Positions 25,119 to 52,832 of a stretch of DNA of 64,000 nucleotides are shown here, in pieces; positions within the stretch are counted from its first letter, which is position 1; each line of letters opens with the position of its first letter. Origin of the DNA: Niallia alba (lineage in GTDB: Bacteria > Bacillota > Bacilli > Bacillales > Cytobacillaceae); the NCBI RefSeq assembly GCF_012933555.1, contig NZ_JABBPK010000001.1:3822001-3886000 (forward strand), given 5' to 3'. The notes below the pieces were generated by a model. The model had not been told where the DNA came from. It made no database searches and worked only from the letters and a program-made list of their open reading frames with translations. The position numbers and the translations under genes were made by a program.

Positions 25119-25312
25119 GGCTATTTTCTAAAAGATTGTTGTTTTTTCAACAGGAGAAAAGAATTAGTTGGAAAATAGAGCAGTCGGAATACACGTAGAC
25201 TGCTGTGGGATTAGCGAGACATTCTACGACCCCGGAGGCGAAGCGCGAGCCCAATGGAAAGCGAAGTGTATTCCGGCTGCGGGTAATAGCAACAAACTTT
25301 ACGAAAATAGCC
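25119..25312 (-). repeat. Repeat family C, intact copy (MITE-like)
   Basis: 194 bp between imperfect terminal inverted repeats GGCTATTTTCTAAAAG and CTTTACGAAAATAGCC. The interior has an inner inverted module (GGAATACACGTAGACTGC and AAGCGAAGTGTATTCCGGC) and GGGTAATAGCAACAAAC. The second long copy is at 49119, split by an IS110 element, with short fragments at 45026 and 61488. Flanking bases (AACAA/AAACA) do not form a clear duplication. Confidence 0.75.
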
Positions 25313-48725: not shown

Positions 48726-49290
48726 CTGTTTACCTCCCGCTGATGTTCTTTTTACGAGAACAACTGTCTTTGTATAGTAGACATTATAGTGTTTGAATCC
48801 TTTTTTTACAAGGGGTGTTTATACATTCTTTAAAAATTTCTATTTTATAAATAGAATATATATGTATTTATTCTAAAAAAAATCAAAAGAATGCTCGTTT
48901 ACTTATTGAATCCATTATATAGGAAGATGATAATAATCTAAAAGGAAAATTATAAATTTTATGTATATTTAGATTTTTATTTACATTTTATATTTTTTAA
49001 TGGTTTTTCCGCTCTATTATGTTTACATGTGAGCGAAGGTTTAGATTAATCATCTTTGCTGTTACCTTTTCTTCTCCCTAGATATAACGCACTCTAATCT
49101 ATATATTCTTTTAATGAAAGGCTGTTTTCATAAAGTTTGTTTCGATTACCCGCTGCCGGAATACACTTCGCTTTCCGTGGGCTAAGCTTAAGCCACCTCC
49201 GCTTCGTCTTCGTGTATTCCGGCTGCTCCATTTTCCAACTAATTCTTTTTTCCTATCGAATAAACATCAATCCTTTAGAAAAACTCTCAT

Positions 49291-49480
49291 GGCGGCGTTA
49301 CCCGCCGCCACCGTCTATCATGAAAACTTGCTCCTATCCCATGATAGAAAGTCTAAACCACTTAACACCTGACCATAATTAATAGTACAATACGACCAGT
49401 CCGAAGACTGTTTGGTGGATCAATACAAGTTGATACCCCGTTAGAAAAACTGGTTGTGACAGTTTAAAAGAACCGTCTAA
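49291..49480 (+). ncRNA. Candidate IS110 bridge-RNA locus
   Basis: Structured left end of the IS110-family element. Hairpins: GGCGGCG/CGCCGCC (49291-49309); CTATCATG/CATGATAG with a 17-base loop (49315-49347); ACCAGTC-CGAA-GACTGTTTGGT (49395-49416); and a CCCCGTTAG..AACTGG region (about 49435-49455). IS110 elements encode a ~180-nt bridge RNA here whose loops pair with target and donor DNA. Exact RNA ends and loops are not determined. It is now 1.9 kb from the recombinase start. Confidence 0.5.
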
Positions 49481-49539
49481 TGTGTTTATAAACACGAATA
49501 CAAAAATTTTGTATGATGACTTCTGTCGCTTGTATTGTA

Positions 49540-49547
49540 TTAAAAAT
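49540..49547. repeat. Target-site duplication, left copy
   Basis: TTAAAAAT directly before the IS6-like left end GGTAGTGTC. The identical 8 bases occur at 51386-51393 after the right end. Confidence 0.85.
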
Positions 49548-49620
49548 GGTAGTGTCAAAAGATTTATGAAAACTACCTAAAGGGTTAGTTTCTCTCCTAT
49601 TTACTGGATGGAGATGCGCC

Positions 49621-49770
49621 GCAATCGCTCTTGACAAACACGCCAATGGTTTGAGGATTGTTTAACAAGGGCGAAGGGAACAAAAGAAGGCATACCAAAT
49701 AAGCCCTTGGTTGTTTCCATTTTAAACCATTGGCAAGTTCGGTTTGTCAAGAGTTCGCTCCGCCGATTGC
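49621..49770. repeat. Long inverted repeat inside the IS6-like element
   Basis: Arms at about 49621-49672 and 49703-49770. The left arm contains GCAATCGCTCTTGACAAAC, CGCCAATGGTTT and AACAAGGGC; the right arm reads GCCCTTGGTTG, AAACCATTGGC, GTTTGTCAAGAG and CCGATTGC. A cruciform or very stable transcript hairpin is possible. It occupies the ~250-base non-coding end downstream of the transposase. Confidence 0.65.
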
Positions 49771-49803
49771 TGAATTAGCTTAAGGGCTCAGCTAAACAAA
49801 AAG

Positions 49804-51243
49804 TTAGGCTTGTCTTTGTTCTACTATCCATTGTTGTGCTAATCCAATGAGCTTTGTCCAACGTGCTGGCATTGTTGGAAGCCCCTTGAGTTCTGGATTC
49901 ACTACGGGCACTTTTCCTTCTAAGGCGGCATGCGGACGCAAAAAGTTAAAGTAGGCCGTAAATAAGGTGACGTATGAAATGGAACCATGTTCAGAGCCGA
50001 ATCCATGAGTGGAGCGATAATTGCCCTTAAAGGTGCGGTTAAGTCTCTCAATTATTTGTTTCAGTGGTCTATATTCGGTCGAAACAGGGTCCTCATTGGT
50101 TAATCCAATGACCTGCTTCACATCGAATGAAATCCCATGTTGAGCGAAGAAATGTTGGGCTAAAAGATAGATTGGATTCCCGTCTACCACAAAGGTCAGA
50201 TTTTCTGGAATCTCTTTCATCTTGATTAAGACCTCATCAATTGCTCGAATGGCTGTTGCTGTGTCTCGATTAGGCGACACCGGATACGAAAGAATAATCT
50301 TTTTCACGGCGTCAAAAAAGAAAAATAAATAATGCCATCGACCGTTTACTCTGATATACGTTTCATCACCGCAGAATTGGTCTGAAAGTTCATAGGGATA
50401 GTGATCCACATAAGGTTTAAGTAATAAAGCTACGCTATTTTCGTAGTTCAATACAGTCTGATGTGAAATCATCACTCCGTGTACGTCCTGCATAATCGCA
50501 GCTGTTTTACGGGCCGAAAGGCCATAGTTTACATGATAGGTTAGGATTAATCCTAATGTATGTGGTGATGCATAAATCTTTGATAAGTCAACGGCCGGCA
50601 GTTCTGGTGATTCCTTGGATAACGGCTGGAAATCGATATGAAACTGACGGAAAATGTATCTTAATTTAAATGCTTGAGGGTCCTTTTTGAACCTTTTCTT
50701 TTCTTTTGAAGTCATCCCATTGAGCTTCTTTTGATAATAAGAACAGTCATTGTTCTTGCACTTAAACACGTGAAAATCTTTTCTTTCTTTTATTTTCTCG
50801 AGAGTTTTGGAACAATGAGGACACTTCAGGATGGCTTCCTTAGAATAACGGTTCTTTTCACTGAAGAGCTCTGTACACACCTTGCATTGATACTGGCCTT
50901 TATCTCCATTGTTGGCATAAAGATAATCTGATGGAGCACCACACTTTGGGCAGTTCATGGATTTAGGTACGGAAACTTTTGCATTCTTACGCCTTTGAAC
51001 AGGTTTAAGTGGTTTCCCGTTCTTCTCTAGATATTCACTAAGAAGAACTCGATAATCAAGCTGTTCCAGAACTTCAATGACCGGAAGGTCGTCCACTTGA
51101 AGTTTTCGATATGGTTTATTTACTGGCTGTTCAGTAGGCTTATCAAACATACTCTTACCAATCAATAAAGTAAGCAATGTTCGAATTAGTTGTTCTTGAT
51201 AGTTTATAAAAGTTAATAAATAGGTTATAATTTGAGGGTACAA
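49804..51243 (-). CDS. DDE transposase, IS6/IS240-like with N-terminal zinc fingers
   Basis: 479 residues from a TTG at 51243 (AAAAGGAAGTGACAA upstream). A hydrophobic N-terminal helix (PQIITYLLTFINYQEQLIRT), two zinc-finger segments (CPKCGAPSDY with CKVC; CPHCSK with CKNNDC), then the DDE core: CGDETYIRVNGRWHYLFF (first Asp), FVVDGNPIYLLA (second Asp), QIIERLNRTFKGNYR (Glu). No stop or frameshift, so it may be active. A longer frame to 51288 lacks a ribosome site. Confidence 0.88.
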   Translation of the reverse strand: MYPQIITYLLTFINYQEQLIRTLLTLLIGKSMFDKPTEQPVNKPYRKLQVDDLPVIEVLEQLDYRVLLSEYLEKNGKPLKPVQRRKNAKVSVPKSMNCPKCGAPSDYLYANNGDKGQYQCKVCTELFSEKNRYSKEAILKCPHCSKTLEKIKERKDFHVFKCKNNDCSYYQKKLNGMTSKEKKRFKKDPQAFKLRYIFRQFHIDFQPLSKESPELPAVDLSKIYASPHTLGLILTYHVNYGLSARKTAAIMQDVHGVMISHQTVLNYENSVALLLKPYVDHYPYELSDQFCGDETYIRVNGRWHYLFFFFDAVKKIILSYPVSPNRDTATAIRAIDEVLIKMKEIPENLTFVVDGNPIYLLAQHFFAQHGISFDVKQVIGLTNEDPVSTEYRPLKQIIERLNRTFKGNYRSTHGFGSEHGSISYVTLFTAYFNFLRPHAALEGKVPVVNPELKGLPTMPARWTKLIGLAQQWIVEQRQA

Positions 51244-51385
51244 ATTGTCACTTCCTTTTCTAGGTTGTTGAGAGTGTCGTAACCTCAATTATCCTTAGAA
51301 TTCAGGGGGTGGCAATTTTTTTGCTTATAAAGCCCTCTCAGATAGGATTTAATAACCTATTTACTATAAAAGTTTTGACAATACG

Positions 51386-51393
51386 TTAAAAAT
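51386..51393. repeat. Target-site duplication, right copy
   Basis: TTAAAAAT, identical to 49540-49547. It is followed by CTTTGAGGTGATTAT and the IS110 recombinase start, so the insertion kept the recombinase's ribosome site. Confidence 0.85.
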
Positions 51394-51408
51394 CTTTGAG
51401 GTGATTAT

Positions 51409-52638
51409 ATGGAAGCTATGATTGAACGGTGTGCAGGCCTAGATGTACACCAAGAAACAGTAGTTGCTTGTGTTTTATTTGGTTCATTAGATAAAAAACC
51501 AAATAAAGAGATTCAAACCTTTCCAACAACCACAAGTGGCCTTTTGGCACTTAGCGACTGGCTATCCTCACACAAAATAACGGATGCTGTAATGGAAAGT
51601 ACCGGTGTATATTGGAAGCCCGTTTGGAATGTTATAGAATGTGACTTCCAATTAATCCTCGCCAATGCCCAACATGTTAAAAATGTTCCCGGAAGGAAAA
51701 CAGACGTAAAAGATGCGGAGTGGTTAGCTAAACTTTTGCGTTCTGGACTAATTGAAAAAAATTTTGTACCGCCCAAAGAAATTCGTGATTTGCGAGATTT
51801 AACCCGGTATCGTAAAAAACTCATCCATACACGAACTTCTGAGCGCAATCGAATCCACAAAATTCTACAGGATGCAAATATTAAACTAACTTCTGTTTTA
51901 TCTGACATTTTTGGTGTCACTGGTTGTCGCATTATTGAAGCCCTAATAAACGGCGAAAAAATAGGTGTGTTTGAACTTCAACAAATGGTTGATTCAAGAG
52001 TTAAGGCGAGCACAACAGATATTGCAGAAGCCCTTAACGGTGGAATACGTAAACATCATATTGATATGTTACGTTTCCATTGGGACCATATCAATCACAT
52101 CGATGAAACAATCGAAAAAGTAGTTGAACGCATAGACCAAGCGCTTATTCCTTATCAAGAGGAGTGCGAACTACTAGATACCATACCGGGTGTGGATAAA
52201 AATGCATCCGCAATCTTTATAGCTGAAATGGGTGTAGACATGTCAGTATTTAAAAGTTCTAAACATCTAGCCTCATGGGCTGGAGTGAGTCCAGGAAATT
52301 ATGAGAGTGCCGGTAAAAAAAAAACAGGTAAAACTCAGTACGGAAACAAATCATTAAGAACCACCGCTGTTGAATGTTCCATGGCTACAGATAGACAGTA
52401 TAATCGCATATCTGCACATAGAAAAAGAATTATGAAACGACAAGGAAAATCGAAAGCACGGATCGCTTCCGCTCATTTAATCCTAACAATTGCTTACAAT
52501 ATTTTAAAAACAAGGCAACCATATCAGGAACTAGGCCCTGATTATGTTGATCTCGAACAAAGTAAAGAACAAAAAATGATTCAATACTTAAAAAGGAAAG
52601 GGTATCGTATTGAACCCACTAATGAACAAATTGCTTAA
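51409..52638 (+). CDS. IS110-family recombinase (DEDD transposase)
   Basis: 409 residues, full length. N-terminal RuvC-like DEDD domain: CAGLDVHQETVVACVLFG (Asp), VMESTGVYWKPVWN (Glu), GRKTDVKDAEWLAKLLRSGL (Asp, Asp). A coiled-coil middle (RFHWDHINHIDETIEKVVER) follows. The C-terminal Tnp domain has DTIPGVDKNASAIFIAEMG and the catalytic serine in PGNYESAGKKKTGKTQYGNK. All catalytic residues are present. GAGGTG lies before ATG, but promoter and upstream RNA locus are cut off by the IS6-like insertion. Confidence 0.93.
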   Translation: MEAMIERCAGLDVHQETVVACVLFGSLDKKPNKEIQTFPTTTSGLLALSDWLSSHKITDAVMESTGVYWKPVWNVIECDFQLILANAQHVKNVPGRKTDVKDAEWLAKLLRSGLIEKNFVPPKEIRDLRDLTRYRKKLIHTRTSERNRIHKILQDANIKLTSVLSDIFGVTGCRIIEALINGEKIGVFELQQMVDSRVKASTTDIAEALNGGIRKHHIDMLRFHWDHINHIDETIEKVVERIDQALIPYQEECELLDTIPGVDKNASAIFIAEMGVDMSVFKSSKHLASWAGVSPGNYESAGKKKTGKTQYGNKSLRTTAVECSMATDRQYNRISAHRKRIMKRQGKSKARIASAHLILTIAYNILKTRQPYQELGPDYVDLEQSKEQKMIQYLKRKGYRIEPTNEQIA

Positions 52639-52832
52639 TGAATAACAAAAGCACTATATTTAATCATTCCTAGCCTTTTAAAAAAGTTCAAATTTAGAAG
52701 GTTCAGCTTAGTGTTGCCTTTTACCTAAAGAGTTTTCATACAAACAGCCTAATGAAATATAAAAAGACCTTATTAAAAACATAAAATGTGATTTTAACAA
52801 GATCTTCTATAACCATTGCTTCTCCCCATTAT

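Follow-up and report, generated by a model that had tools for sequence, protein, structure and literature searches.

Between hom and yutH in the genome of Niallia alba (G000; 5.24 Mb), three mobile elements lie one inside another, which raises the question of what directed each of them to its site. The locus is part of a window of 64,000 nucleotides (assembly GCF_012933555.1, contig NZ_JABBPK010000001.1, positions 3,822,001 to 3,886,000 of the forward strand), to which all coordinates below refer; the gene names hom and yutH were taken over from a preliminary description of this DNA. The outermost element is a short repeat, family C, which is split by an element of the IS110 family of insertion sequences (IS), and this is in turn split by an IS6/IS240-like element (hereafter IS6-like). 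We consider it very probable that the locus is explained by this nesting together with an IS110 site set by guides in the element's own RNA and an IS6-like element that recognises a ribosome-binding site plus start codon in the form of DNA.

The three-level nesting was read directly from the sequence. Family C is split near its right end by the IS110 element, and the IS6-like element within the latter is flanked by an exact duplication, TTAAAAAT, at 49540–49547 and 51386–51393, as the preliminary description had stated with correct coordinates. In contrast, the duplication around family C, which had been given as AATGAA, is the 8-bp TAATGAAA, two bases longer, at 49112–49119 and 52750–52757. 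The IS110 element ends in the A-run after TTTAG (49279–49283) and at CATAC-AAA (52742–52744), and its junctions have no added duplication beyond the shared A-run. The locus comprises the following features.

49112..49119, no strand: left duplication of family C, TAATGAAA, 8 bp
49120..49283, plus strand: left part of family C, resembling a miniature inverted-repeat transposable element (MITE) and beginning with GGCTG; the family ends are GGCTGTTTTC and GAAAACAGCC
49284..49539, plus strand: left end (LE) of the IS110 element, noncoding, starting in an A-run; the same in all nine copies as printed
49540..49547, no strand: left duplication of the IS6-like element, TTAAAAAT, 8 bp
49548..51385, minus strand: IS6/IS240-like element, 1838 bp, with ends GGTAGTGTCAAAA and TTTTGACAATACG
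49804..51243, minus strand: IS6-like transposase, 479 aa from a conserved TTG; the open reading frame (ORF) is open from 51288 (494 aa)
51386..51393, no strand: right duplication of the IS6-like element, TTAAAAAT, 8 bp
51394..51411, plus strand: target signature CTTTGAGGTGATTAT followed by ATG at +15, the ATG being the start codon of the IS110 recombinase
51409..52638, plus strand: IS110 recombinase, 409 aa
52639..52744, plus strand: right end (RE) of the IS110 element, ending with TTTTCATAC and then an A-run
52745..52749, plus strand: right tip of family C, CAGCC
52750..52757, no strand: right duplication of family C, TAATGAAA, 8 bp

The order of insertion proposed earlier, namely family C, then IS110, then the IS6-like element, is supported, because it follows from the duplications at each level. 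A MITE of family C would first have inserted between hom and yutH, making the 8-bp duplication; an IS110-type element would then have entered the right end of that copy, and an IS6-like element would finally have inserted between a predicted bridge RNA and the recombinase gene. The preliminary description had suggested a search for empty sites of each level. Empty states of the C target and of the IS110 leader were present inside the own genome, where a single uninterrupted TTAAAAAT leader was found in the eight other full-length IS110 copies, all lacking the IS6-like element, whereas the C-only and C-plus-IS110 states at hom-yutH itself were not confirmed. For that comparison, 12 other species of the genus were covered by one genome each; 10 loci spanned yutH into hom (L078 and L088 did not), and inspection by eye of the intergenic stretches displayed revealed neither family C nor an IS at this spot. 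In G010 (L079), a diverged family C copy that had arisen independently was present elsewhere between the two genes.

Family C itself behaves as a MITE: it is short and noncoding, has terminal inverted repeats and a duplication of fixed length, and occurs in many copies. The intact copy cited earlier for comparison is present at window position 25119 (minus strand). Both ends were visible in 25 of 30 inspected loci, with an exact 8-bp direct repeat at the ends in 15 of the 25 and a repeat of at least 5 bp in 20 when up to three bases of shift were allowed; the inspected copies were 100–212 bp long. The target string TTTAGAAAANAGCC had 53 exact matches in the own genome and 116 with at most one mismatch, against 25 for a reversed control pattern, and its base N was C in 46, T in six and A in one of the exact matches. 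Congeners also carried the family, with at least 46 (G004), 44 (G010), 38 (G002) and 18 (G001) matches, those in G001 and G002 being weaker, and each of five genomes of other genera had zero to two weak matches among the candidates scored.

The IS110 element uses family C repeatedly. Nine full-length, protein-identical copies of its recombinase were found in the own genome, and eight of these elements sit at one position of family C, with TTTAGAAAA on the left and CAGCC on the right. The parallel drawn earlier with IS621 of Escherichia coli, which targets REP repeats, thus holds, with the ninth copy (L043) in a non-C sequence reading TTTAGAAAACA. Because the IS110 copies are identical in protein while the C copies differ from one another by roughly 5–29% (among the matches listed), C is older than IS110. 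Among the eight C-resident copies, seven have outer C 8-mers that agree at 7–8 of 8 positions (four perfectly, three with one difference), and L040 has lost its left C end. That these seven keep their own matching flanks indicates that C was present before IS110 arrived.

Identical recombinases in an abundant repeat could also reflect homologous recombination between C copies, which would have carried IS110 from one to another without guided insertion. This explanation is very unlikely, since the seven occupied copies keep their own matching flanks and differ in C sequence, and relatives of the element in other genera sit in different sequences matching their own guides. The ninth copy is likewise at odds with it. 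L043 (G000:C1:2205770-2208400) lies in TTTTTTAGAAAA...CATACTTG, which is not family C, at a site that still matches the guide; guided targeting would allow such a site outside C, because the target core TTTAGAAAACA is retained there. The right end of L043 is fused to a second IS110 copy from codon 343 onward (its last 67 codons and right end). The simplest reading of this arrangement is a probable insertion into the gene of another copy at a partly matching site, after which homologous recombination would have removed the intervening repeat.

Guided insertion is preferred on the evidence of the leader, the noncoding stretch upstream of the recombinase gene. Two stretches stand at a fixed place in the leader: one, of ten bases, resembles the left flank, and the other pairs with the right flank. 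Both lie within an RNA predicted as follows.

49387..49538, plus strand: predicted bridge RNA, 152 nt, with an outer stem ACAATAC/GTATTGT, a target loop and a donor loop
49406..49413, plus strand: right target guide GACTGTTT in the 5' arm of the target loop, pairing with the top strand of AAACAG..
49441..49450, plus strand: left target guide TTAGAAAAAC in the 3' arm of the target loop, in the same sense as the left flank
49498..49506, plus strand: donor guide ATACAAAAA, in the same sense as the IS110 right end CATACAAA

An RNAalifold consensus of 11 orthologues comprised 36 pairs, four with changes on both sides and most invariant. It contained the outer stem, a stem around an internal loop that holds the right guide in its 5' arm and the left guide in its 3' arm, and, around the donor stretch, a second stem. 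Unlike this consensus, the window leader folded as a single sequence had no bridge-like shape, and an Rfam search of the region returned no match at E ≤ 1.

Guides and flanks were found to vary together across IS110 relatives. For the left guide, 68 of 78 variable positions matched in 13 classes, against 36.7 (standard deviation (SD) 4.1, maximum 57) under permutation, and none of 20,000 permutations reached 68. For the right guide, the summed longest match over 19 classes was 113 against 88.6 (SD 4.2; 0 of 20,000). In particular, the right guides of L117 and L091 (GACTGTTT vs. GACTCTTT) are distinguished by a single base, and their right flanks (CAGCC vs. GAGCC) by its partner. Unrestricted scans of the leader identified the same places: with the left flank in the same sense, the left-guide place ranked first of 229 (z 7.7; next 2.7; antisense at most 3.1), and with the right flank in antisense, the best place, first of 222 (z 4.1), was the end of the right guide. 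Furthermore, a donor stretch located 64–75 bases ahead of the gene is identical, over 7–10 bases, to the right end of the element itself in 21 elements and also covaries with it (eight classes, 66 vs. 42.8, SD 4.7; 0 of 20,000). Inspection by eye of the donor loop's 5' arm revealed no donor guide for the left end.

The covariation test started from 53 loci, of which 48 were used, and guides were located by a pattern that assumes top-then-bottom order. L102 (match starting late), L124 (junction missed by the pattern, with guide and flank agreeing by eye) and L127, L131 and L132 (no guide motif) were left out, and the truncated loci L105–L112 and the 40% relatives L074–L076 lay outside the test set. 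Since the class test takes the first element per guide class, six of the 19 distinct guide-flank pairs (L101, L104, L126, L136, L137 and L142) were omitted. Some results count against the guides as drawn: the signal of the right guide is weaker, with a same-sense place elsewhere in the leader reaching z 3.4 in the right-flank scan; in L097 and L129, the right guide is a poor match; and the left-guide pair of L142, which is not its class representative, matches at only 4 of 10 positions through a one-base deletion. The left guide thus stands firmly and the right guide less so.

Because guide and flank covary across classes, the guides rather than the structure of family C would set the IS110 site. 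One arm of the target loop would match the left half of the site (TTAGAAAA), the other would pair with the right half (AAACAG), and an arm of the donor loop would match the element's own right end. The relatives form a natural set of guide and target pairs, including the one-base compensatory switch. At 73–83% identity they were found in Rossellomorea, Peribacillus, Siminovitchia, Schinkia, Cytobacillus and unclassified Bacillus; from 83% down to ca. 42%, they occurred in 3 of 13 genomes at the genus level and 17 of 397 at the order level (own genome counted in both). Plasmid relatives were most frequent in Streptomyces (17 of 80 records).

Several relatives are also associated with repeats. 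A further palindromic repeat serves as target in G573 (L121, L135 and L140), where a 54% relative occupies the left arm of a hairpin, GGTGACTC...GAGTCACC; from copy to copy, the two arms of this hairpin change in concert. Peribacillus-type relatives (L092–L095, L099, L100, L103, L113, L119, L139, L141 and L142) occupy variants of a repeat built around TAGTTCCATAAGAAA, and the element in L141 adjoins an intact example. The left flanks of L117, L091 and L090, ACAAAGTTTACGAAAA, are similar to the opposite end of family C read as its reverse complement; among related MITEs, the guides may alternate between one end and the other. In the relatives in Rossellomorea and G321, the flank is close to the reverse complement of the C left end (23 of 24 bases, by eye); targeting of the other end of a C-like repeat there is a lead only, as G321 has only two weak C matches.

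The innermost insertion raises a separate question, namely why the IS6-like element lies directly before the recombinase gene. Its duplication starts at 49540, one base after the end of the predicted bridge RNA at 49538, and the element sits 23 bp before the recombinase ATG. As a result, the predicted bridge RNA and the recombinase gene are each intact but 1.84 kb apart, and the gene is now separated from any promoter that the IS110 ends might form. This position is not incidental, as the element obeys a strict target rule. In all 15 copies in the own genome (ten near-identical and five at 78–79%), an ATG lies 15 bp (13 copies) or 16 bp (two copies) past the right duplication, preceded by a G-rich run in nearly all.

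The rule extends well beyond this genome. Relatives of the element were found in 10 of 193 genomes of the family, 26 of 397 of the order and 7 of 398 of the phylum (own genome counted in each), and in 11 plasmid records, eight of which were taken in. From 86 distinct right-end junctions, four were tandem and 82 (39 genomes or records) were kept: ATG was at +15 in 60 and at +16 in 16, TTG at +16 in one, and no start codon at either place in five. In the window, ATG stands at +15 or +16 of 3.7% of positions. At the other offsets within the first 32 bases of the junctions it occurred at most three times each, apart from 13 cases at +1, which belong to the G-run context. As a control, the opposite end of the elements was examined and had ATG at +15/+16 in 3 of 64 cases, against 59 of 64 on the right. 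Grouped by identity to the window transposase, ATG was present in 20 of 21 junctions at 90–100% (plus the TTG), 36 of 37 at 75–90%, 11 of 13 at 60–75% and 9 of 11 at 40–60%. Identical 8-bp flanks were present at 63 of the 82 junctions; the other 19, which were not checked individually, had no identical 8-mer at the expected distance. L197, with ATG at +15, is not in this count.

The site rule is thus shown by the junctions, although a number of points tell against its being universal or weaken the count. The five junctions without a start codon at +15/+16 are L150, L160, L191, L252 and L256: L150, which was read in two pieces, is a true exception with matching 8-bp flanks, L160 is internally deleted, and the other three keep the G-run. 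A further 13 loci had no readable right end and were left out of the 82. Junctions of one genome share one element lineage, so that the sites are independent and the transposases are not. Finally, three of the own-genome sites score low on the weight matrix described below. L252 (G685) combines a good ribosome-binding site with ATT at +16, which may be a look-alike or an uncommon start codon.

A rule of this form might arise from selection, if insertion were random and only those insertions that spare the ribosome-binding site and start codon were kept. Most insertions do spare the downstream gene. Selection would, however, allow any upstream distance and both orientations, whereas the observed distance is constant to within one or two bases and is seen on one side only, and insertions inside genes obey the same spacing. 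This explanation is therefore extremely unlikely.

Alternatively, the element could be drawn to active translation initiation, that is, to nascent mRNA, the ribosome or an open transcription complex, rather than to the letters of the DNA. The footprint of an initiating ribosome would end near the cut, and among 62 sites with ATG (a set without the genuine right ends L185, L186, L200 and L228, which the 82 include), the ATG starts a frame of 60 aa or more in 49. In the remaining 13 the frame is shorter. In 10 of them the left flank was usable and the empty site was rebuilt with one duplication kept; L144 (left flank formed by another IS copy, in a tandem pair) and L213 and L222 (no matching left flank) were not counted. 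Seven of the 10 lay inside a crossing ORF of 173–454 aa, in antisense (L024, L029, L030 and L164) or in another frame (L033, L167 and L192), and no crossing ORF was found at the rebuilt empty sites of L031, L202 and L225. Pfam named segments in five of the seven: DUF3231 (L029), EcoRII-N (L030), SecA_DEAD (L164), DAHP_synth_1 (L033) and DUF421 (L167). In L164 (G037), the element thus lies antisense inside a SecA-like gene; the right side of L144 matched SQHop_cyclase_N.

The DNA letters alone gave a share of real gene starts like that of the insertions. With a weight matrix built from 37 foreign sites, an ORF of at least 60 aa lay behind 16 of the 20, 27 of the 40 and 33 of the 60 best matches in the window. 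The DNA signature alone can therefore explain why the sites are mostly real gene starts. Because some sites are look-alikes within other genes, in antisense or out of frame, it is probably the DNA sequence rather than translation that is recognised, and attraction to translation initiation is unlikely.

The transposase complex would most likely read a bipartite DNA signature, in one orientation, past an unspecific 8-bp staggered cut: a G-rich run at ca. 3–8 bp and an ATG at 15–16 bp. This signature would be the DNA form of a ribosome-binding site and start codon, so that most insertions would fall just upstream of genes and leave both whole. In the 62 sites, the position of the G-run had an SD of 1.3 against 0.4 for the ATG, the latter understated because the sites were selected for ATG at +15/+16. 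The two parts are separated by about a helical turn, a spacing that would fit a protein in contact with a single face of the DNA, and we infer that the protein itself reads the signature, perhaps via its zinc ribbons and N-terminal extension.

It is quite likely that a whole clade of IS6-like elements, spread over Bacillales and more distant lineages of the phylum, uses ribosome-binding-site and start-codon DNA as a universal landing address at fixed distance and orientation. If so, these elements would find thousands of sites in any genome while mostly sparing coding sequence, and an insertion may rewire transcription of the adjoining gene. An outward promoter at the IS6-like right end was considered and set aside, with three promoter-like matches in 281 bases against 1.1 (SD 1.3) in shuffles. 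A gene-start rule predicts landing places and the genes that lose their promoters, and why copies collect just upstream of genes. It also gives this clade of IS6-like elements with long transposases a testable property. To our knowledge, insertion sequences with a sharp target rule are uncommon. In the parts of the open-licence literature covered (subscription journals and preprints lay outside this scope), no report of a ribosome-binding-site/start-codon target rule for IS6-like elements was found.

Like IS26 and IS240, the innermost element has a DDE_Tnp_IS240 domain (PF13610, 36.8 bits, cut-off 27; 15 of 15 relatives match at E ≤ 0.01) and an 8-bp duplication, perfect in 15 of 15 own-genome copies; its score against the NCBIfam IS6 equivalog model NF033587 was 76.5 bits, below the cut-off of 125. 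IS26 forms tandem arrays. In L178, L179 and L180 (G180), the IS6-like element stands in tandem arrays whose units are separated by the same 8 bp, AATGGGAA, and whose gene contains a stop; the arrays could be real or due to assembly, and the last unit, L180, keeps ATG at +15. L202 and L203 (G283 and G432) share the same junction and 8-bp flanks in two species of one genus, reflecting either an old shared insertion or a recent transfer.

The transposases of IS26 and IS240, unlike the one here, are mostly 220–250 aa (PMC7986276; this and the other papers cited were available in part, and statements drawn from them refer to those parts). The transposase here has a hydrophobic N-terminus, two CxxC zinc ribbons and a DDE domain. 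It resembles ISTet2, ISHahy6 and ISHco2 (clade VIII in PMC6807381, clade i in Varani et al. 2021, PMC7986276) in an element length of 1.7–1.8 kb, an 8-bp duplication and a transposase of ca. 450–490 aa with a zinc finger and a further N-terminal extension. Judged against the published description only, the clade VIII/i features (zinc finger, extra N-terminal extension, ca. 450 aa, 1.7 kb) are all present. The available sections of these two clade descriptions give no target rule, and Harmer and Hall (2019; PMC6807381), in the part available, found no experimental data on the longer bacterial IS6-like elements.

The recombinase places the middle element in the IS110 family. It matches DEDD (PF01548, E 1.4e-29) and Transposase_20 (PF02371, E 9e-19), both above cut-off, and NF033542 (268 bits, cut-off 140); its best match in the PDB is IS621 (E 3.4e-13), and its 409 aa fall within the 395–455 aa reported for a subgroup of IS110 itself (PMC11187229). 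Like the IS110 group, the element has a long noncoding region with a predicted guide RNA upstream of the gene. The order of the guides is that of the other group: bottom-then-top was reported for the IS110-type ISEc21 and top-then-bottom for the tested IS1111 types (Siddiquee et al. 2024, PMC11187229), and here the top-strand guide comes first, with both places confirmed by the unrestricted scans. Our data thus separate two traits reported to go together, the position of the guide RNA and the order of its guides, although top-then-bottom order may already be known for some published elements of this kind.

One of the closest known systems is IS621 (Durrant et al. 2024, PMC11208160), which shares the IS110-family recombinase, a noncoding RNA region in the left end with two internal loops, target guides on both arms and a preference for an abundant palindromic repeat; the predicted leader fold has the architecture described there for bridge RNAs. 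In IS621, however, the bottom strand is the partner of the 5' arm and the top strand that of the 3' arm, the reverse of the order here. In having the top-strand match 5' of the bottom-strand match, the element resembles instead the seekRNAs of the IS1111-group elements ISEc11, ISPa11 and ISKpn4 (PMC11187229). That group usually has its noncoding region downstream of the gene and long subterminal inverted repeats, whereas here the region is upstream and the repeat, AAAACTCT, is ca. 8 bp and poorly kept in relatives (both by eye).

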